DNA from: a virus
Virus record (IMG/VR): IMGVR_UViG_3300031576_000118
Span: 1 to 43,098 of that record
Direction: 5' to 3' (one strand)
DNA length: 43,098 nt
The notes beneath the pieces were generated by a model. It made no database searches. It was not told where the DNA came from and saw only the letters and a program-made list of their open reading frames with translations. Positions 7,814 through 42,582 of the stretch are shown one piece after another; the first letter of the stretch is position 1, and every line of letters starts with the position of its first letter. The position numbers were made by a program, and so were the translations under genes.

Positions 7814-10800
7814 TCAAGCTCCTCTCACAGTGATGTCGACGTTCCCGGCTTCGTCGACGCCGGACGTCTGGTTCCGCAGCTTCACGGTCATGCTCAGGTT
7901 CGTTTTGCCCTCCGCACGCGGCACCAGCGGCGTCGTCCCGAGGACGGTGATATTCACCGCCGGCGCGGTGGCGTAGGCTTTCGTGAAGGTGATGAGCGTC
8001 CCAGCCGCCGCGATGGCCTGATTGACGAACCGCTCCTCCTTGTCCTTGACGTCGGCCACCACACTGCACTCGTAGACCTGCACGTTCTTCGTGGTGTCGT
8101 TGGTCTGGATCAGCAGGCGCACCTTGTAGTAGCGCACGGTATAGACGCCGCCCACGAAGTTCACGAATGTGGACGGGTTGGCGTCGGTATCCGATTTCGC
8201 CCACTGCAGCGTGACCGTGCCGTTGCCCGCCAGGTACTTGAAGGCCGCGCCGAAGACGACCGACTGGATCGAGCCTAGATCCCGAACACGGCTGGTGTAG
8301 TTCTCCTGCGTCGTCTCGCGCTGCTCCGTGTCCCAGTTGAGGTCCGTCTGCAGCTGCGTGTACGTACTCGCGTAGGTATCCACGCGCAGGATCGTCTTGA
8401 TCCCGATCACCGGCCGGCGGAAGGCCGTGCTGAACAGGGCGGCGAGCTGCAGCTCGGCTCCTGCGGAGAACACGCCGTCCGCCAGCCCCTGGTCGAAGAT
8501 ATCGAAGGTGTCCACAATGTTCGACGTGCTCTGCGGATCCGCCAGAATGGAATCCGACGCGGCGTTGAGGCTCGGATTGCCGCTCGCGTCGATGGCCTTA
8601 ATGCGGAAGGTCTTGGTGCCCGCCGTGAAGTCCCGAATGCGGTGCTCAGTCGATTGGAGGCGCACTACAAAGCCCGCGCTCGCCCAGTCGGTGCCGCCCT
8701 CACGGATCTCGTACTCGTCCCGGTCGACGTCCTGGATGGCGTCCCAGGTGATCACCAGCTCATCGCCCAGCTGCTGCACGTTGAAGTTCTGCACGTCCGA
8801 TGGCGCGGCGGTCTTGCCGTCGACCGTCACGCTGGACGAGGTGGCGCCGTCGCTTTTCACGTCGTAGCGGTTGACCGTGCGCACGCGCACCGTGTAGCTG
8901 GCACCCACCTTGGCCCCCGGCAGCAGTGCTACGGTGGAGCCGGCGAGCACCACGGCCCGCTCCTGGTAGGCGCCGCCGTTTTCGCTCCATTCCAGCGCGT
9001 AGTGCTTGAGGTTGATCTTCTCGATGGGCTCCGTCCAGTTCACCTGCAAGTTGCTGATGAACGCGCCGTCGACCTGCAGGAAGCCCGTCGCGCTTACGCC
9101 CAGGCCGCTCACGTCGGCCACCGGCAAGAAGGGGTTGGGCGGCGGCGTGTAGTCCAGCGTCACCACGTTCTGCTCCAGCTGGTCGTTGAAGATGCTGCCG
9201 GTGAAGGCCTTGCCGATGATCTTCACCCGGTGATCCGGCTGCTCGAGCAAACGAAAGGCGCGGAACTTGTACGCGGTCAGACCATCGCCCAGGATGGAGT
9301 GTGTCGCCTGGAAGATGTCGCCCGGCTCGAGGGCGATGGCGTTGATGTCCGTCGTGAAGGCGATGGTGTACCAGTTGACCTTCGCATCGTTCAAGGCCTT
9401 CGTGATCTCGCGGATGCACTGGCTCTGGCGCTGCAGCCCGAGCAGGTTCACTTCGCGCGGGTTGATGCCGCGCGGGTTAACGTCCTGATCGCCGAAGTCC
9501 TCGACCTGCACGCGTGCCGGCGCGTCGTTGCCCTCCGTGCTCGGGTCGATGTACTTGCCGATCACACGGTTCGGCCGCTCCTCCTTGCTGAAGGTCTGAT
9601 AGCTGACGTCGAGCATATTGTCCTCGGTGAAGCTCTGCACCGGGCTCTCGTCCTTCTCGACCTTCAGGTGGAACACGCGCCCGTCGCTGATCAGAAATCC
9701 GCCGAAGGTGGCCAGCGTGTCCTGCAGGTTGTCCAGCCACGGCCGGAAGCTGTCGATGCCATAGACCAGCCTGGCCCGAGGCTCCGTCCCGCCCAGGCCG
9801 TTCGGCACGCTGACCTCCGCCCAGTCATAGACGTCACCGAAGCAGGTATCGCACATGCGGGTTTCCTCGAAGCCGCAGCCGCCGACTTCACGGCTTAGCG
9901 TCAGGTAGTCGCGCACGATGGCGGCTGGGTTGCCGCTGACCGTACTGCCTGACCACGTCGACGCGCTCCACGTCTTGATCTTGCGCCCGCCGTCGAGCGT
10001 GCAGGTGATGAGCGGATCCCCGCCCAGCTTGTCGCTGCCCTTGAGCGTCACGGCGATGTAGGCCCGGTGGCGCAGGCTGGTGATCCCCGAGTTGGCGAGC
10101 CGGCTGTCGATGCCCTGCGTCGCGGTGCCCACGTAGGCCGTGGCGCTGCTGCCGGAGAAGCCGCTGATCGCTTCGCCGTTGAGCTCGACGCCCGAGATCC
10201 CGCCGAGCTCGCCGACCGCGACGACGACGCAGCGCTTCTGCTCCTCGGCGCCCTGGCCGCTGTTCCAGATTTCATACGTCTGCAGGATACGGATCGAGCC
10301 GGCGCCGTAGATCAGCGGCACCGGGTACTGGTTGCTGCGGACGTTGCGCGCGCCATCGAAGCTATACCGGGGCGACGAGCTGAGGCTCTGCGCCGTGTCG
10401 AAGTTGAACGCGCGCCGCGCGCTGTTCATGGCGCCGATGCCGAAGCCAATGGACGCCGCCGTCGCCGCGACCGTGATGGCGCCGATGATCACCGCCGCCG
10501 TGCCGGTGGCCACGCCGAAGGTCACCGTGCTGCCAATGGCCGCCAGGATGGCCGTGATCAGATCGTGCCCTGGCGGCAGGTCCAGCCACGCGCCCTCGCG
10601 CCCGCGCACGGCGCCCTGCAACCACTCGGGGCGCATGCGGATGATGAGGCTGCCGGTGCGCACATCGGTGGTCAGCATCTTCCCGTAGCCGAGCCAGACG
10701 CCGATGTGCAGTCGGCCGTGCCGGTTGCGGTAGTAGACCAGGTCGTTGCGCTGCAGTTGCGTGATCGGCACCGACGTGCCAGCGTCTTTGATGGCCGTCT

Positions 10801-24956: not shown

Positions 24957-25506
24957 TGACCGACTCCCGGAGAATGGCTGAGATCTGCCGGATGTCTTCC
25001 GGCGTGGAGTGCTCGACGAGCGTCTTCAGCGTCGCCTGCAGATTGACGTCCACCTGCACCGGCTCCTTGTGGAGTTTGCCGAGCGATTGCAGCACCTCGG
25101 GGAGCTCCTTCGTGATGCGCCAGGCGGTAGCGATGTCGCCTTTGGCGAGCGCCTTTTGCCGCAGCCCCTCCGCCATGGCGACCGTCTCATCCGCGACCCG
25201 GTCGACTGTGTACTCCTTCACCAGGCCCGCGTTGCGCGATTTCAAGACGCGGATGTCGCGCTTCACCGTGCGGTGGCTGCACTTGAGCAGATCCGCGATC
25301 TTCGCCTGCCCCCAGCCTTCCCACCGGAGCATGTCCACGATCGTCAGGCGCTCGGGCCGATGTAAGTGCTTGGGGTTCAGGTCGCTCCGCTTGATGCGGT
25401 CAACCAGCTCCAGGGCGGGTTTCTGGGACAGCAGGGACGGGTGATGTCCCCATCGCCGGGACGACTTGGCGGCTTGCTGGGCGGCGGCCACCTGGGTGTC
25501 AGCCAT
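24940..25506 (-). CDS. Terminase small subunit, putative
   Basis: 188 residues from the ATG at 25506, which lies inside the methyltransferase stop region. Contains a helix-turn-helix (WGQAKIADLLKCSHRTVKRD), as small terminases use for binding the packaging site, followed by a helical region with AWRITKELPEVLQSLGKL and EDIRQISAILRES. Position directly upstream of terL gives the assignment; sequence alone would say only HTH protein. Confidence 0.82.
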   Translation of the reverse strand: MADTQVAAAQQAAKSSRRWGHHPSLLSQKPALELVDRIKRSDLNPKHLHRPERLTIVDMLRWEGWGQAKIADLLKCSHRTVKRDIRVLKSRNAGLVKEYTVDRVADETVAMAEGLRQKALAKGDIATAWRITKELPEVLQSLGKLHKEPVQVDVNLQATLKTLVEHSTPEDIRQISAILRESVNVRRN

Positions 25507-26797
25507 GCACGGCCTCCGGATGCGCCGCCAGCTCCGGCTTGCCGACGAACCGCGCGTAGCGGTCCCGAATGACGTCACAGAACACCGGCTGCAGCTCCAT
25601 CGCAAAGCAGCGCCGGCGCAGCCGTTCGGCCGCGATCAACTGTGAGCCGGATCCGGCGAACGGCTCATAGCAAATGTCGCCGGTCCGGGTGTGCACGCGC
25701 ATGGGGATCTCGAAGAGCCCCACCGGCTTCTGCGTGGGGTGCAGCGCGGCGCTGTTGCGCTGCCGGCCTTCCCAGTCCAGTGGCCAGAGGTCCGTGTAGA
25801 AGTCCGGGCTGGTCGGGTCCCCGGGCCGGTCATAGCCCACGGCCCACACCGTGGAAATCTTGTGGATGCGGCTGTTGAAGCCCGGCTTGAACCCCTGACG
25901 CCAGCCGAAGAGCGCCAGCTCGTGCCGCCAGGCGTAGTACGAGAAGGTGATGAGCGCCGCGGGTTTGGCCCACACGATCGTCTGATGGGGAATGATGCCG
26001 AGCTCGGTAAAGAGCGCGATCATCACCGCGTACCAGCGGTGCGCCATCCAGCAGTAGACCGCGGCATCGTCCCGCGTCACGCGCAGCCCCTGCGTCAGCA
26101 GCGCGCGAAAGAACGTCGCGCCCTCGTTCGCCGGCAGCTCGTGGTAGAGCGCGGACCAGTCCTTCCCACCGCCCGGCCGATCGGCCCCCGTGTAGTCGAC
26201 CACGTAGGGCGGATCCGTCGCCATCAGCGCGGCGCGCTGGCCGTCCATCAGCCGGTCGACGTCCTCGGCCTTGGTCGCATCACCGCACAGCAGCCGGTGC
26301 GGGCCCAGCACGTACAGCTCGCCGGGCTTCGAGACGGCCACGGGCGGGACTGGCGGCGCCTCATCCGGGGCGACGGTCCGCGGGGCGCCGAGCAGGCCTT
26401 CCGTCAAGAGGGCATCCAGCTCCTTCGGTTCAATGCCCAGGCTGGACAGATCCCGGCCGGCCTGGTCCAGCTCGAAGACCCGCGCCGCCAACTGGTCCGG
26501 CACGTAGGCGCCGTAGGCGTTGTTGTCCTTGAGGTTGCGCTCGCGCTCCTGGTCCAGCGGAATCTGATCGACCAGGCACGGCACGGTCGCCCAGCCCAGC
26601 TGCCGGGCCGCCTCCAGCCGCATGGCGCCGGCGTAGACGACGCGCCGGCTGTCCGGACGGAGATTCACGAGACAGGGGCGGTGCCGGAAGAAGCTCGGGT
26701 CCGCGGTGAGGGAGCGCTTCAGGGCGTCCATCTGCGCCGGGGTGATCGTGCGGGGGTTGTAGTCGACGAGCTGCAGCTGGCTGAGTGGCAAGTCCAC
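25499..26797 (-). CDS. ParB-like domain fused to DNA adenine/cytosine-N4 methyltransferase
   Basis: 432 residues. Residues 1 to about 110 match the ParB-like nuclease domain (LSQLQLVDYNPRTITPAQM, VYAGAMRLEAARQLG). The rest is a beta-class amino-methyltransferase: DPPYVVDY (motif IV, about residue 198) precedes FAGSGSQLIAAE (motif I, about 390). ALHPTQKPVGLFE is typical. It likely methylates phage DNA, protecting it from restriction. Start is a GTG without clear ribosome binding site, so the true start is uncertain. First gene of the late operon. Confidence 0.87.
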   Translation of the reverse strand: MDLPLSQLQLVDYNPRTITPAQMDALKRSLTADPSFFRHRPCLVNLRPDSRRVVYAGAMRLEAARQLGWATVPCLVDQIPLDQERERNLKDNNAYGAYVPDQLAARVFELDQAGRDLSSLGIEPKELDALLTEGLLGAPRTVAPDEAPPVPPVAVSKPGELYVLGPHRLLCGDATKAEDVDRLMDGQRAALMATDPPYVVDYTGADRPGGGKDWSALYHELPANEGATFFRALLTQGLRVTRDDAAVYCWMAHRWYAVMIALFTELGIIPHQTIVWAKPAALITFSYYAWRHELALFGWRQGFKPGFNSRIHKISTVWAVGYDRPGDPTSPDFYTDLWPLDWEGRQRNSAALHPTQKPVGLFEIPMRVHTRTGDICYEPFAGSGSQLIAAERLRRRCFAMELQPVFCDVIRDRYARFVGKPELAAHPEAVHG

Positions 26798-26853
26798 AAC
26801 GTGCGGCGTGTCCAGGGCGTGCTCATATCGCAGCCTCGATCTGCAGCTGTGGC

Positions 26854-26883
26854 TGGACGGCGACTCCGCCAGCGTGCTATCGT
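26854..26883 (+). promoter_or_regulatory. Candidate promoter of the tRNA-like RNA
   Basis: TGGACG (26854-26859), 18 bases, then an extended -10 TGCTATCGT (TG at 26875-26876, hexamer 26878-26883). The sequence GTGCTA recurs before the -10 of the second + strand RNA at 38103-38111. Start of transcription would be near 26890. Agreement with the sigma-70 consensus is only moderate. Confidence 0.4.
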
Positions 26884-26889
26884 GGTCTC

Positions 26890-26979
26890 CGCCTGAAGCC
26901 GTAGCTCAAGCAGAGCATCACGGGCCTCGATCCCGTGACGATGGCTGGGTGCACCCGCCCGGCTTCGGGCTTTCTGTTT
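26890..26979 (+). ncRNA. tRNA-like RNA with overlapping terminator
   Basis: From 26895: GAAGCCG (26895-26901) pairs perfectly with CGGCTTC (26960-26966) as a 7-bp acceptor-like stem; TA; GCTC/GAGC D-like stem with loop AAGCA; A; a 7-bp stem TCACGGG/CCCGTGA with 7-base loop CCTCGAT; CGAT; then a hairpin GGC-T-GGG/CCCGCC with TGCA loop (26943-26959). The D arm TAGCTC...GAGCA is canonical, but the anticodon loop lacks U33 and the T loop is not TTCRA, so it is not an ordinary tRNA. The 3' acceptor strand lies inside GCCCG-GCTT-CGGGC (26957-26970) followed by TTTCTGTTT, a terminator; the two folds exclude each other. It lies on the strand opposite to both operons. Confidence 0.6.
26957..26979 (+). 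terminator. Terminator of the tRNA-like RNA
   Basis: GCCCG (26957-26961), loop GCTT, CGGGC (26966-26970), then TTTCTGTTT. Five GC pairs with a tetraloop and T-rich tail on the + strand. It shares seven bases with the acceptor-like stem of the RNA it ends. Confidence 0.6.
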
Positions 26980-27000: not shown

Positions 27001-27047
27001 AAGCAAAAGCGGCCGTCCCGCTGGTCTGCACCAACGGAACAGCCGCC
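27001..27047 (-). terminator. Terminator of the early operon
   Basis: Read leftwards: GCGGCTGTTCC (27047-27037), loop of 16, GGGACGGCCGC (27020-27010): 11 bp with two G-U pairs, followed by TTTTGCTTT. It lies about 120 bases beyond the last early gene and ahead of the late operon, so it should separate early from late transcription. An antiterminator would be needed if the late genes were read from the early promoter. Confidence 0.75.
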
Positions 27048-27164
27048 GTAGTCTGGTCTGGCCCGCGCGTCCTGCGCGGCGAGCGGGTGACCGCTCAAGC
27101 TGCCCTGCCCCGCCGCCGCTCTAACGGACCGGCGAGGTGGGTCGTGCCATGTCCTACTGTGACT

Positions 27165-27371
27165 TTACGGAGCCGCGGGCGCGGACGTCAAGGTCGGCTC
27201 CACGAAAAAGACATACTCCCGGCCCGCCTCCACGATGACCTTGCGACGGCTCCCCGCAATCACCGTCGAGGACAAGCTCAACTGCCCGTGGCCGTGCCGC
27301 ACGATCTCCCGCGCACTTTCGAGCAACTTCCGCTCCCAATCTGCCAACATGCCCCCTGGCGGATCACCCAT
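27165..27371 (-). CDS. Small hypothetical protein, end of early operon
   Basis: 68 residues starting MGDPPGGMLADWERKLLE; the ATG lies in the last codons of the upstream gene (8-base overlap), like the terminase small subunit. Helical N-terminus, then a beta pattern (QLSLSSTVIAGSRRKVIVEAG, YVFFVEP). Unrecognised. Last gene before the early terminator. Confidence 0.65.
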   Translation of the reverse strand: MGDPPGGMLADWERKLLESAREIVRHGHGQLSLSSTVIAGSRRKVIVEAGREYVFFVEPTLTSAPAAP

Positions 27372-27750: not shown

Positions 27751-28136
27751 CGCAGGCGCGCCCGCGCGGCCGTCGTCAAGTGCTCGGTCAGTTCCGGATA
27801 CGCCGGGCCCAACTCCGTCTGGATGGCATCGATCGCCGCCTCGAGGCCATCCCGGTACCCATCATCCCCCTCTCGGCGCTTGGCCTCGAACAGCCGCTGC
27901 AGGTGGTGATGCAGCGCCCGCGCGTTCCGCTCGCTGAGGCGCTCGATGGTCACGCCGATCGGCAGACAGACCACGAGGCCACGGAACTGCAGCTGCCGCT
28001 GCAGATCACGCTCCAGCTCCTCTAGAAACTCGGGGCTCGGCATGACGTCGCAGGAGAGGATGATCAGGTTATTCCCCGCAATCTGCAGGCCTTCGATGCG
28101 TTCCACGATCGCGGAGAGCGGCACCGGCTGGCTCAT
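27747..28136 (-). CDS. Hypothetical protein coupled to the lyase-like gene
   Basis: 129 residues from ATG at 28134-28136, overlapping the lyase stop as ATGA. Alternating strands and helices (NNLIILSCDVMP, FLEELERDLQRQLQF, GLVVCLPIGVTIERL) followed by a helix-rich half with ERNARALHHHLQRLFEAK. No family recognised. Coupled translation links its dosage to the upstream lipoprotein gene. Confidence 0.68.
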   Translation of the reverse strand: MSQPVPLSAIVERIEGLQIAGNNLIILSCDVMPSPEFLEELERDLQRQLQFRGLVVCLPIGVTIERLSERNARALHHHLQRLFEAKRREGDDGYRDGLEAAIDAIQTELGPAYPELTEHLTTAARARLR

Positions 28137-30328
28137 GGCTGTTGAATAGTCACCGTGTCCTTCCCGGGCCCCACCAGCCCCAGCAGCCCGTCCTTCCACA
28201 CCGGCCGGCTGTTCTTATCCGCCGGCAGGCTGAGTGCCGCCATGCGCTCCGTAGTGATGCGCAGCGTGACCGCCGGTGCGCCCGGCCGCTCGATCGTCAG
28301 TAGCGGGGCTTCCCAGCGCGTCGTGACGCTGCCGCCCTCGCCGGCGTAGAGTACGGCGATCATGAGCGTGAACGGCTGAACCGATTGCGGTGTGGCGATC
28401 AGTCGCTGGCTGTTCTGCTCGCCGGGCTTGAAAGTGCCCGACAAGTCCGCGTCACTCCGAAGGCTCCAGGTGACCGCCGGGGTCACCATGCGCGCCCGCA
28501 CGGTCTGCCCGCCGGCGGTCCACTTGGCGTCCTGGCCGTCGATCGTCGGCGTGGTGGCCGCGTGCAGCACCCACTGGATCGGTGGCTTGCCGGTGATCCG
28601 CGCCCGGGCGGGCGCTTCATAGCGCTCCACGTCCGTCACCGGGTCCGCGTCGATGCGGTCGATGACCACGATGGCATCGCCCTTCTCCGAGGGCAGATAG
28701 ACTAGAGCTCGCGTCCATTCGCGCACAGCGCGCTTGGGCGGCTTATAGTAGTCCTTCTTGCATGAGGAGTGCCCGGCCGTCGCGCCGATGGCGATGGCGT
28801 AGTTGGCGCCGACTTCCAGGTGCCGCGGGCCTCGGGCTTCGCACATCGACGAGAGCCCCGAGAGCAGCAGGCTGTTGTGGTGCTCGCCCTCGCTCGCGCC
28901 GTAGCCCACCGGGTGCGTGATGACCCACGCGCCCTTGCGGTAGAGCTGCACGTTGCCGAAGAAACTCCCCGCGTGGTGCACGCCGGTATAGGGCTGCACC
29001 TGCGCCGCGAAGAGGCTCTGCGCCGTGCGCGCGTAGAGCAGCCCCATGCCGGCGGCCGCGTGCCCGGGCCCAAGCTGCGCTTGCCAGTCCGTCGCGCGCG
29101 GCAGGTACGGATTGCCGAAAGCGACCTGCCAGGGGCTCAGCTCGCGCGCGAGATCCTGGTTGCCGCTCATGGCCATGGCGAAGCCCTGGAACACTGGCTC
29201 CGGGTGCAGTCCGCCCAGCACATGCAGCAGCCGCAGCCGGCGATCCTCCTCGAGGCTCCGAGCGTTCTCAACGTCGCCCCATTGGATAGCCCGCTTCAAA
29301 TCCGGCGTGACTTCGTGCGCCTGCGCCTTCCGAATCTCACCGGGCAGTCCGCCCAAGTCCATGCCGGAGCCAGCGGCCCCCACGAGCAGCAGCCGCAGCG
29401 TGCCCATGTTGTAGCTGGAGCTCTCGATCCACGCGCCGCCCTTGGCCTTGCCGACGTAGCGCTCGACCGCCGTTTTCAGCTTCTTCACGTCGTCCCGATC
29501 GCTGAAGCCCTCAGCCCTCGCGTTGTCGCCCGCGCTGGCCTTCATCCAGAGCGTCATGCCGAAGTAGTGCCCGGTGGTCTCGTCGCTGTCCGCCGTCGAC
29601 GTGCCCCAGGCCACGCCGATCACCTTGCCGAGGCACAGATCCGTCCAGTAGTTCAGGCTCTTGATCCATGACGCGCGCTGTTCGGCGGTGAGCGCCGGCC
29701 GCAGCCAGTCGTACATGATGGCGAAATCGCTGAACTGCTCCCGCGTGAAGTTCCTCGAGCTGTCGGGCTTGCCGCCGTTGAGCTTCTTCTTCGCCTGCGC
29801 CCAGGCCTTCGCGGCATAGCGCGCGTCGCCGGTCATCTGGTAGGCGACCGTCGCCCACTGCCCCAGGTCCGCGTAGCGCGCGGTGGTGGTCCCGGACAGC
29901 TCCGCGTTGGCCTTGAGCTGCTTCCACCACGGGTGATTCTCCGCGACCATACGCTTCCAGACGCCCTGCCGCTCCGTCGTCCAGAGCAGCCGCGGCGTGC
30001 GGCCGGTCGGGGAGCTCGACGCGCTCGGGGTGGCCACCGTCACGACGTCCGGCGCGCCGAGCGGTTCCTCCGCCGCCGGCGGCACGTCCACGGTCGGTGG
30101 CTCAGGCGCTGGCGCAGGCTCTGGTGCAGGTGCCGGTGCAGGTTCAGGGGATGGCATCGGCTCCGTGATCAACACCGGCGCAGGGGATGGACTCGGCGCC
30201 GGCGCATCGATCACGACCGCCGGCGCCTCACCGACGGGTGTTGCGGCGATCGGCGGCTCGTTCGTGCCGGCTGTGCAGCCGACCGCGAGCAGCGCGAATA
30301 CTACACTGTAATAAAGCGGATTCCGCAT
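28133..30328 (-). CDS. Lipoprotein resembling heparinase II/III-type polysaccharide lyases
   Basis: 731 residues from an ATG with AGGAGGG 6 bases upstream. Lipobox LAVGC gives lipidated Cys18. Residues about 35-100 are a Pro/Ala/Glu linker (PAPAPEPAPAPEPP). Then an alpha/alpha-toroid-like part (TPRLLWTTERQGVWKRMVAE, YAAKAWAQAKKKLNGG, FAIMYDWLRPALTAEQRA, with a Tyr-rich GKAKGGAWIESSSYNMGTL) and a C-terminal beta part with GAWVITHPVGYGASEGEHHN, IVVIDRIDAD. This two-domain layout is that of heparinase II/III and alginate-lyase-like families, which cleave acidic polysaccharides by beta-elimination. Candidate catalytic residues are Tyr or His in the GEHHN region. A surface or periplasmic lipoprotein with this fold in an early operon is unusual. 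Enzyme activity and substrate are not shown. Confidence 0.72.
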   Translation of the reverse strand: MRNPLYYSVVFALLAVGCTAGTNEPPIAATPVGEAPAVVIDAPAPSPSPAPVLITEPMPSPEPAPAPAPEPAPAPEPPTVDVPPAAEEPLGAPDVVTVATPSASSSPTGRTPRLLWTTERQGVWKRMVAENHPWWKQLKANAELSGTTTARYADLGQWATVAYQMTGDARYAAKAWAQAKKKLNGGKPDSSRNFTREQFSDFAIMYDWLRPALTAEQRASWIKSLNYWTDLCLGKVIGVAWGTSTADSDETTGHYFGMTLWMKASAGDNARAEGFSDRDDVKKLKTAVERYVGKAKGGAWIESSSYNMGTLRLLLVGAAGSGMDLGGLPGEIRKAQAHEVTPDLKRAIQWGDVENARSLEEDRRLRLLHVLGGLHPEPVFQGFAMAMSGNQDLARELSPWQVAFGNPYLPRATDWQAQLGPGHAAAGMGLLYARTAQSLFAAQVQPYTGVHHAGSFFGNVQLYRKGAWVITHPVGYGASEGEHHNSLLLSGLSSMCEARGPRHLEVGANYAIAIGATAGHSSCKKDYYKPPKRAVREWTRALVYLPSEKGDAIVVIDRIDADPVTDVERYEAPARARITGKPPIQWVLHAATTPTIDGQDAKWTAGGQTVRARMVTPAVTWSLRSDADLSGTFKPGEQNSQRLIATPQSVQPFTLMIAVLYAGEGGSVTTRWEAPLLTIERPGAPAVTLRITTERMAALSLPADKNSRPVWKDGLLGLVGPGKDTVTIQQP

Positions 30329-30342
30329 CGTGCCCTCCTGGT

Positions 30343-30459
30343 TTATCCTTCCGGCTTGACGCACCACTCGCAGTCCTCGTTGAGGCACCGCAGCATCCCG
30401 ACGCGCCACAGCCACATGCCGTGCTGCATGCGCGCCCACCACCTACGGATCCGCTTCAT
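30343..30459 (-). CDS. Mini-protein with Cys pair
   Basis: 38 residues beginning MKRIRRWWARMQHGMWLWR and ending in RCLNEDCEWCVKPEG. The amino end is basic and Trp-rich, the C-terminus has C-x4-C-x2-C. Weak ribosome binding site (AGGGC). Lies 16 bases after the nuclease stop and 15 before the lyase start. Short and unrecognised; could be spurious. Confidence 0.4.
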   Translation of the reverse strand: MKRIRRWWARMQHGMWLWRVGMLRCLNEDCEWCVKPEG

Positions 30460-39359: not shown

Positions 39360-40025
39360 ATGACAAGAAAACAACGCATCCAGCGCTACATTATCGGCGA
39401 GCGACTCCGGCAACTAAGGGGTGCTCGTCGTCGGGAAGAGCTGGCCACGAAGTTGACGGTGTCGGTGGACACGATTGCCCGGTGGGAGCTGGGCGACCCT
39501 GTCAAAGAACCGGACTGTCACCGGCTCGCCAAAGCCCTGGGGGTGTCCCTTGAGGAATTGATCGGTGCCGATCGTGTCAGCGAGCCTAGCGGTTCCTATC
39601 TGCCTCCCGGCGCCGAACCCCTCCCAACTCGCTACGTCAAGGTTCCCCTGCTCGGCACCTGCCCCGCCTCGGCCAAGCAGATCATCAACGACGAGGTGGT
39701 GGACTGGGAGTATCTACCCCGCGAGCTCGTGCGCGGCCAGCGGGTCTACTTACTGAAGATCAAGGGGGACTCAATGAACCGGGCGGGGATCGATGACGGT
39801 GATCGCGTGGTCGTGTACGCGGACCAGCAGCCGGAGAACGGCGAGATCACCGTGGCGCTGGTGGATGGGGAATGCACAATCAAACGGTGGTTTCGGTCAG
39901 ACTATCACATCACGCTGACGCCGGACTCGACCAATCCGAAGCACCAGCCACAGACGTTCACGAAGGCCAATGAGGTCCTGGTGCGCGGGGTGGTCCGGGC
40001 CGTGTGGATGAAGCGGCTCAAATGA
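39360..40025 (+). CDS. Phage repressor, HTH plus S24 LexA-like peptidase
   Basis: 221 residues, AAGGA nine bases upstream. HTH at about 11-70: GERLRQLRGARRREELATKL, TVSVDTIARWELGD. C-terminal S24 domain: GDSMNRAGIDDGD with Ser138 and CTIKRW with Lys175 form the self-cleavage dyad. The site expected between Ala and Gly in the LexA family reads LLGTCPASAK, so cleavage would be Ala103-Ser104, an atypical site. It maintains lysogeny by binding the operator; after DNA damage, RecA-stimulated self-cleavage would induce the phage. Its own promoter has no good -35, suggesting weak expression or self-activation. Confidence 0.88.
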   Translation: MTRKQRIQRYIIGERLRQLRGARRREELATKLTVSVDTIARWELGDPVKEPDCHRLAKALGVSLEELIGADRVSEPSGSYLPPGAEPLPTRYVKVPLLGTCPASAKQIINDEVVDWEYLPRELVRGQRVYLLKIKGDSMNRAGIDDGDRVVVYADQQPENGEITVALVDGECTIKRWFRSDYHITLTPDSTNPKHQPQTFTKANEVLVRGVVRAVWMKRLK

Positions 40026-41448: not shown

Positions 41449-42453
41449 ATGTCCCACCTGTATCGCCGCGGTGACTTGTACTGGTACGCCACCTACGTCG
41501 CCGGCCGCAAGGTGCGCCGGCCATTGGGCACCCGGAACAAGCGGCTGGCGCAGGCGCGCAAGGCCGAGCTCGATCTGCAGTACGCGCGGGCCCATCCGCT
41601 CGCGCCGCACCGCGGCTACGACATCACCTTCGAGGACGCGACCGTCCGCTACCTTGCGGCCACCGCGCGCCAGCACACCCCGATGTGGCACTACGTCCTT
41701 GAGCGCCGCCTGCGCCATCTCACCGCCATCCTGGGGTCTGTCAAACTGGCCGACCTCGGCCCGGAGCAGCTCGGGACCGCGCTGAATCGCCTCACGACGC
41801 AGCGCAAGCTGCACGCCGGCACGCAGGCCGCGTACTTTGCCATGCTCCGCAGCCTCAGCCGCTGGGCCGTCACGAACGGGTTGCTGATCACCGACATCAC
41901 CCAGGGCGTGGCCAAGCCCCGGCCGAAGGACACGGAGCGGATCTGGTTGAGCAAGGCGCAGCGGGACGCGCTGTTGACCCTGGCGAAGCCTAGCCCGCAA
42001 TATCCCCTGGTGCTCGCGGCGCTCTATACGGGGGCCCGCTGGCGGGAGCTGGTGACGCTGGAGTGGACGAGCATCGACTTCGAACGCCGGACGGTCACGA
42101 TTCAGCCCCAGCACGCCAAATCCGGCCGGGCCCGGGTCATTCCCCTGCACCCCGCGCTCGAGGCCGTCCTGCGGCCGCTGAAGCGCCCGAGCGGCGCGAT
42201 CTTCGGCCTGCCGACCCGCATCGCCTACGCGGAGGGCTTGCGGGAGGTGCGGCGCTGGTTCCGGACGATCAAGCTCAAGGGCGACCGGCTGGGCTACCAC
42301 GTCTTCCGGCACACCTTCGTGAGCCTGCTGCTGCAGGAAGGCGCCTCACTCTGGGACGTCGCCGGCTGGGCCGGCCACTCGGACGCCCGGGTCACGCAGA
42401 AGCGCTACGCCCACCGGCTGCCCGCCTACAATCCGGCCATCGAGCGCTTGTAG
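41449..42453 (+). CDS. int: Tyrosine integrase
   Basis: 334 residues. N-terminal arm-binding part (HLYRRGDLYWYATYVAGRKV), core-binding helices (about 65-155), and catalytic domain with Arg197 (GARWRE), Lys224 (QHAK), His284-x-x-Arg287 (YHVFRH), His310 (WAGHSD) and Tyr320 (QKRYAH). All six catalytic positions are present. Adjacent to attR, as usual for tRNA-integrating phages. It recombines attP with attB in the tRNA-Gln gene. Confidence 0.93.
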   Translation: MSHLYRRGDLYWYATYVAGRKVRRPLGTRNKRLAQARKAELDLQYARAHPLAPHRGYDITFEDATVRYLAATARQHTPMWHYVLERRLRHLTAILGSVKLADLGPEQLGTALNRLTTQRKLHAGTQAAYFAMLRSLSRWAVTNGLLITDITQGVAKPRPKDTERIWLSKAQRDALLTLAKPSPQYPLVLAALYTGARWRELVTLEWTSIDFERRTVTIQPQHAKSGRARVIPLHPALEAVLRPLKRPSGAIFGLPTRIAYAEGLREVRRWFRTIKLKGDRLGYHVFRHTFVSLLLQEGASLWDVAGWAGHSDARVTQKRYAHRLPAYNPAIERL

Positions 42454-42510: not shown

Positions 42511-42531
42511 GCTGGCGGACTAGGATTCGAA
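42511..42531. other. attR: attR, right prophage attachment site
   Basis: Exact 21-bp copy of attL, lying inside the 3' end of tRNA-Gln. The left neighbour is prophage (AAGAAC), so on the minus strand the tRNA end now reads TCCGCCAGC followed by GT. Host sequence starts to the right of the core. Confidence 0.93.
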
Positions 42532-42582
42532 CCTAGACAAGCAGATCCAGAATCTGCTGTGCTACCGTTACACCATCCGCCA
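42512..42582 (-). tRNA. tRNA-Gln (CTG)
   Basis: 71 bases without CCA. Acceptor TGGCGGA pairs with TCCGCCA; discriminator G. D stem GTG/CAC, anticodon stem GCAGA/TCTGC with loop TTCTGGA giving anticodon CTG; T stem CTAGG/CCTAG with loop TTCGAAT. All arms complete. The 3' half is supplied by the phage attachment core. At attL the original gene shows G-CCA; after integration the end reads G-CGT, so CCA must be added after transcription. Confidence 0.95.

Follow-up and report, generated by a model that had tools for sequence, protein, structure and literature searches.

An integrated prophage has a tRNA-like RNA element on its plus strand, where two minus-strand operons leave a gap between them, and the structure of the element is real, beyond chance. 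The element looks from its sequence like an autonomous RNA gene of about 89 nt, predicted to run from about 26890 to 26979, whose product probably acts as a regulatory RNA or a tRNA decoy. Its architecture, its rarity relative to shuffled sequences, its terminator and a promoter-like site upstream of it are all shown by computation. As an explanation, we tentatively favour, although at somewhat less than an even chance for the joint reading, an autonomous tRNA-derived small RNA (sRNA) of the prophage that controls the late operon as an antisense RNA in cis.

The cloverleaf at 26891-26970 (+) comprises 28 pairs in a single structure (Table 1). A preliminary description had reported a cloverleaf-like element on this strand, and every part that it described was found in the sequence, namely the canonical D-arm TAGCTC...GAGCA, the 7-bp anticodon-like stem (TCACGGG/CCCGTGA) and the bulged T-arm-like hairpin, together with the lack of U33 (the loop reads CCTCGAT) and of TTCRA. 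The perfect 7-bp acceptor that it gave (GAAGCCG, 26895-26901, with CGGCTTC, 26960-26966) is also present, but four further pairs had been missed, and the closing stem GCCTGAAGCCG/CGGCTTCGGGC is in fact 11 bp long, including one U-G pair. The letters CGAT separate the second arm from the bulged T-like arm. In addition, there are two copies of the 9-mer GCCTCGATC at a distance of 91 bases (26833-26841 and 26924-26932), each framing a 7-nt hairpin loop, CCTCGAT.

Table 1. Positions of the tRNA-like element, its signals and the neighbouring prophage features.
Feature	Position	Strand	Remarks
5' strand of acceptor-like stem, GCCTGAAGCCG	26891-26901	+	11 bp
3' strand of acceptor-like stem, CGGCTTCGGGC	26960-26970	+	
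tRNA-type D-arm, TA-GCTC-AAGCA-GAGC-A	26902-26917	+	5-nt loop without G18G19
Second arm, TCACGGG-CCTCGAT-CCCGTGA	26918-26938	+	7-bp stem, 7-nt loop, C at position 33
Bulged T-like arm, GGC-T-GGG-TGCA-CCC-GCC	26943-26959	+	4-nt loop
Intrinsic terminator, GCCCG-GCTT-CGGGC hairpin (26957-26970) and tail TTTCTGTTT (26971-26979)	26957-26979	+	hairpin -9.7 kcal/mol
Putative promoter, TGGACG-18-TATCGT	26854-26883	+	TG extended -10 (TGC, 26875-26877)
ParB-like/DNA methyltransferase	25499-26797	-	opens the late operon
Intrinsic terminator of the upstream minus-strand operon	27008-27047	-	18 pairs, TTTGCTTTGT tail; faces the plus-strand terminator
Candidate promoter, TTGACG-18-TAAAGT	27162-27191	-	upstream of the 27008-27047 terminator
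CI-like repressor	39360-40025		
Integrase	41449-42453		adjoins the 42511-42541 repeat

The element folds at a minimum free energy (MFE) of -43.7 kcal/mol (z-score -4.04), and none of 200 shuffles was as stable. The sequence is GC-rich and raw energy is not unique to the element, as 11 of 2,152 segments of 80 nt fold as well or better; therefore, the evidence lies in the architecture and not in the energy. The architecture was searched for with a descriptor limited to Watson-Crick pairs (a 7-bp acceptor, a 4-bp D stem and a 7-bp arm with a 7-nt loop), which matched only this element in the window, that is, in the whole 43,098-nt stretch of DNA analysed here. Whole-window dinucleotide shuffles gave three matches in 542 (0.0055 per shuffle), and the canonical TA-GCTC...GAGC-A letters, which are not part of the descriptor, come on top of this. 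A descriptor without such constraints that tolerated G-U pairs was set aside as too permissive (0.42 chance matches per shuffle) and replaced by the Watson-Crick-only version.

The element has the 7-bp acceptor and the TAGCTC/GAGCA D-arm of a tRNA cloverleaf. However, the features of a functional tRNA are absent: its loops, CCTCGAT, TGCA and AAGCA, provide no U33, TTCRA or G18G19, and it carries no CCA, the 3' side reading GGGCTTTC. ARAGORN called only a tRNA-Gln in the window and not the element, and the Rfam tRNA model returned nothing in the element region even at E<=10. A functional tRNA is thus ruled out by both programs and by the missing U33, elbow loops and CCA. Real phage tRNAs with TAGCTCAATGGCAGAGC and real phage tRNAs with TGCAAAT T-loops exist, from which the element differs by short loop deletions; it can be read as a tRNA minus a few bases in each elbow loop, which would be its putative derivation.

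The element has its own terminator on the same strand, as would an autonomous small RNA. The base of the acceptor stem (26970) directly abuts the T-rich tail TTTCTGTTT, and the 3' acceptor strand CGGCTTC overlaps the GCCCG/CGGGC terminator, with bases common to both hairpins, as had been described. An acceptor stem that doubles as the terminator base is a layout unreported by tRNA finders. Upstream, the promoter-like site predicts a start at about 26890-26891, which is the stem base. Only two extended -10 promoter-like sites, of which this is one, passed the chosen threshold in a scan of the 43-kb plus strand; the threshold was set after the region had been seen, and the match of the site to the consensus is weak (8/12). 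The site is therefore support, not proof, for a putative gene of its own.

The record (IMGVR_UViG_3300031576_000118) is an integrated lambda-type prophage with short host flanks. A 31-nt direct repeat of the tRNA-Gln 3' end, 90% identical between its copies (1019-1049 and 42511-42541), represents the attachment sites in tRNA-Gln, which is why the record is taken as an integrated prophage. The best genome match of this tRNA-Gln has 88% identity; Methylobacterium was considered as the prophage host and rejected, the tRNA-Gln identity being 75%. The minus strand holds nearly all phage genes other than those of the integrase and the repressor, and the late operon runs from the methyltransferase to an HTH protein, TerL and the portal. 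The tRNA-like element occupies the space that separates the end of a minus-strand operon from the first late gene, which agrees with its earlier placement opposite both operons at their junction. In lambda, pR'-tR' is the late-control layout, a promoter followed by a terminator, and a similar layout is seen at 27008-27191 (-), where a strong terminator comes about 110 nt after a promoter-like site. The same strand encodes a 769-aa protein (28133-30442) with a lipobox-like VGCTAG near its start, which matched nothing in Pfam, PHROG or NCBIfam and had no viral-contig relative by pattern search; it is likely a moron or lysogenic-conversion gene.

In the antisense scheme that we infer, which takes in transcription, tRNA ancestry and antisense action, the RNA would start at about 26890 and stop about 89 nt later at the T-rich tail ending at 26979. 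It would have kept the tRNA D-arm signature and the cloverleaf, lost U33 and CCA and lengthened its stems. With the D and T loops shortened, the tRNA elbow could not form, and with the acceptor-like stem doubling as the terminator base, tRNA processing would be unneeded. The product would be a stable, structured RNA antisense to the leader of the methyltransferase-terminase operon, in contact with that leader via its loops or acting by convergent transcription, and the late genes would probably be kept quiet in the lysogen. The RNA would be fully complementary to any late-operon leader that crosses 26979-26890, and late transcription from the 27191-27162 site past the 27047-27008 terminator would cross the element. 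In addition, the 7-nt loop CCTCGAT recurs at 26834, so that the late mRNA would present the complementary AUCGAGG near its start; on this basis, the two loops could make contact close to where the methyltransferase message begins, the repeat being a post hoc observation.

The reverse strand of the element folds equally well (-45.0 kcal/mol), as is expected of an antisense pair, and this predicted stability suggests an antisense role, as do the back-to-back terminators of the element and the minus-strand operon and the place of the element opposite the late leader. On the other side, an antisense RNA does not need a tRNA signature, and the late leader may not span the element because no late promoter was identified with confidence.

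The preliminary description had seen in the RNA a possible sensor that terminates or reads on according to which of two mutually exclusive folds forms; a ligand or protein would pick the cloverleaf or the terminator and thereby control read-through. The terminator hairpin does take up bases of the 3' acceptor strand, and enforcing the terminator leaves a tidy alternative fold in which AGCCGT pairs with ATGGCT. However, with the terminator hairpin enforced the RNA folds at -35.1 kcal/mol compared with -44.9 kcal/mol, which favours the cloverleaf by 9.8 kcal/mol, and the cloverleaf closing stem and the terminator hairpin both end on base 26970, with one T-rich tail after it for either fold. Moreover, no plus-strand gene into which read-through could lead was identified downstream within 12 kb by approximate gene calling. 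Two comparable folds, one of them reading into a downstream gene, were thus not what was found. Of the proposed exclusivity, the shared bases hold, but the distinct terminating and reading outcomes are not supported, and a sensor or read-through switch appears highly improbable. Because the closing stem is 11 bp long and ends at 26970 before the tail, it is itself positioned like a terminator stem, and in modelled folding of the growing chain the intermediates are replaced by the cloverleaf once the last bases emerge. An ordinary sRNA that terminates and then refolds would suit these predicted folds without a sensor. The plus-strand cloverleaf could alternatively be incidental to a DNA-level or minus-strand feature, such as a cos/pac packaging site or a structured late leader. 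The position just upstream of the methyltransferase-terminase operon, the palindrome GGGTGCACCC within the element and the equally good folding of the minus strand would all fit such a feature, but the D-arm letters and the T-rich tail are in the right sense on the plus strand only, and a nested cloverleaf is unexpected for a DNA site; we consider this explanation very unlikely.

An RNA that occupies a tRNA-handling enzyme, with the effect of protecting tRNAs or modulating the host, ranks second among the explanations, although we regard such a tRNA mimic or decoy as somewhat unlikely. The enzyme could be a processing enzyme, an anticodon nuclease, a modification enzyme or a Ro60-like protein. 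The canonical D-arm letters and the cloverleaf speak for mimicry, as do the sole 21-nt match among 84,980 genomes, which falls in a tRNA module resembling a Y RNA and next to a Ro60 gene, and the Ro60-linked Y-like modules with the same 5-nt D-loop pattern in phage contigs. Many tRNA-binding proteins, however, read the elbow (D and T loops), U33, TTCRA and CCA, which are missing here; the prophage has no detectable Ro60, and no homologues of the element were found. The more specific form, in which an elbow-less mimic whose acceptor stem is its terminator binds a host tRNA-handling or Ro60-like protein and might, for instance, inhibit an anticodon nuclease or another tRNA-targeting defence, is in our view unlikely. 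The tRNA-like, terminated RNA of the preliminary description stands, its role as a tRNA mimic is possible and its role as a sensor is not upheld. A phage-borne tRNA gene now decaying into a pseudogene would account for the short loop deletions that set the D-arm and the T-arm apart from those of real tRNAs, and tRNA genes are common in phages. Nevertheless, the stems show perfect pairing and are extended (11-bp acceptor, 7-bp second arm) instead of eroding, there is no CCA, and the gene is solitary, its own terminator lying at the base of the stem. Because no stem is broken and the stems exceed those of a tRNA in length, mere decay is disfavoured, and we judge it distinctly unlikely.

The lead to Y RNAs came from an exact 21-nt stretch, CCGTAGCTCAAGCAGAGCATC, for which the 84,980 genomes gave a single match, that of Methylobacterium sp. 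2A (L281), where it belongs to a permuted Y-RNA-like tRNA module upstream of a Ro60 gene (TROVE and vWA domains). The element shares with YrlA-type Y RNAs a tRNA-like module with the D-arm TAGCTC-AANNA-GAGCA, and 21 nt are identical to L281. However, Y RNAs (Rfam consensus and the L281 and L163 folds) carry a T-arm, an acceptor hairpin and a D-arm inside an outer stem, whereas the element has the arm order of a plain tRNA and ends in its acceptor stem. The YrlA model (RF02553) reached only 16.7 bits (E=1; gathering score 69), on the opposite strand. No Ro60/TROVE partner was found among the window ORFs scanned, and the Methylobacterium Ro60 gave no tblastn match to the window at E<=1. The element was therefore rejected as a bacterial Y RNA on three grounds: no RF02553 match on its own strand, no Ro60 found and an unpermuted order. 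What the two have in common, judging from sequence, is the tRNA-mimic D-arm.

Some jumbo phages are known to encode TROVE proteins (PMC7824862). Two viral contigs found here with a D-arm pattern that matches the element (5-nt D-loop) carry Ro60 genes as well. In one phage contig (L163:8400-9982), a Ro60/TROVE gene (8540-9982) is directly preceded by a permuted Y-RNA-like module with its own terminator-like hairpin, and this module matched nothing in Rfam at gathering score; in the other (L102:9177-11314), a Y-like D-arm lies upstream of a Ro60 gene (TROVE and vWA). In Methylobacterium sp. 2A (L281:3300-4000), several tRNA-like fragments, none of which was called by ARAGORN or Rfam, lie in a row upstream of the Ro60 gene and are an apparent Y RNA array.

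No homologue of the element was found by blastn against phages and plasmids, or with exact and degenerate D-arm and second-arm patterns in IMG/VR and 84,980 genomes, in which the records nearest to the window may be absent. The first D-arm pattern run on IMG/VR covered a sample, with no homologue among the matches listed. Pattern matches were limited to chance matches in coding sequence, to tRNA-like RNAs of other kinds and to the Y-RNA-like module of Methylobacterium. A covariance model built from the single sequence returned nothing above 29.2 bits except the window itself in about 1.9 Mb of loci and 249 Pseudomonadota genomes. The one genome match at that score (L290) was dismissed as a homologue, having neither the TAGCTC..GAGC D-arm nor a tRNA call, and was taken for chance. 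The nearest phages are 57% identical in TerL and 46% in the methyltransferase, and the regions upstream of their methyltransferases showed no recognisable tRNA-like element; antisense terminators occur near the methyltransferase in 6 of 44 cases, and none is tRNA-like where checked.

Five phage cloverleafs with 5-nt D-loops (L173, L176, L134, L122 and L196) score 18-28 bits to the single-sequence model. They share with the element an acceptor, the TAGCTC-5-GAGCA D-arm and further arms, and most are uncalled by ARAGORN. Some have a CCA 3' end, but none has a 7-bp second arm or a terminator fused to the acceptor, and the likeness is one of architecture, not established homology. Four of them (L173:14-82, L176:9289-9353, L134:6561-6640 and L122:4182-4257) are ARAGORN-negative cloverleafs with odd T-loops in phage contigs, and that of L173 lies 54 nt upstream of terL.

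Several known systems resemble the element in part. Temperate phages make OOP-type antisense RNAs, as in lambda, which are short, terminated and transcribed from the strand opposite a phage operon; the element would share this arrangement, but OOP is not tRNA-like. ColE1 RNAI, an antisense RNA of about 100 nt that lies opposite its target RNA and controls plasmid primer formation, is, like the element, a multi-hairpin RNA with 7-nt loops, but the Rfam scan gave no match to the RNAI family and no sequence relation to it was seen. The resemblance of RNAI loops to tRNA cloverleaf loops has been noted previously (cited in PMC4555960). The pseudo-tRNA tRNAOther of Bacillus cereus is a tRNA-like small RNA from a mobile or island locus that affects gene expression outside translation (PMC3399842). 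The element is similar in being a tRNA-like small RNA on such a locus; however, tRNAOther keeps a Trp anticodon and can be weakly aminoacylated (PMC3399842), whereas the element lacks U33, the elbow and CCA and has a built-in terminator. Should the element be expressed, the prophage would have a small RNA that uses the tRNA shape minus the parts needed in translation, a compact test case for the re-use of tRNA-derived RNAs, whether in regulation or as decoys for enzymes that target tRNA. The element is an orphan prophage sRNA that belongs to a known broad kind, the tRNA-like RNAs outside translation, of which it is an unusual variant.
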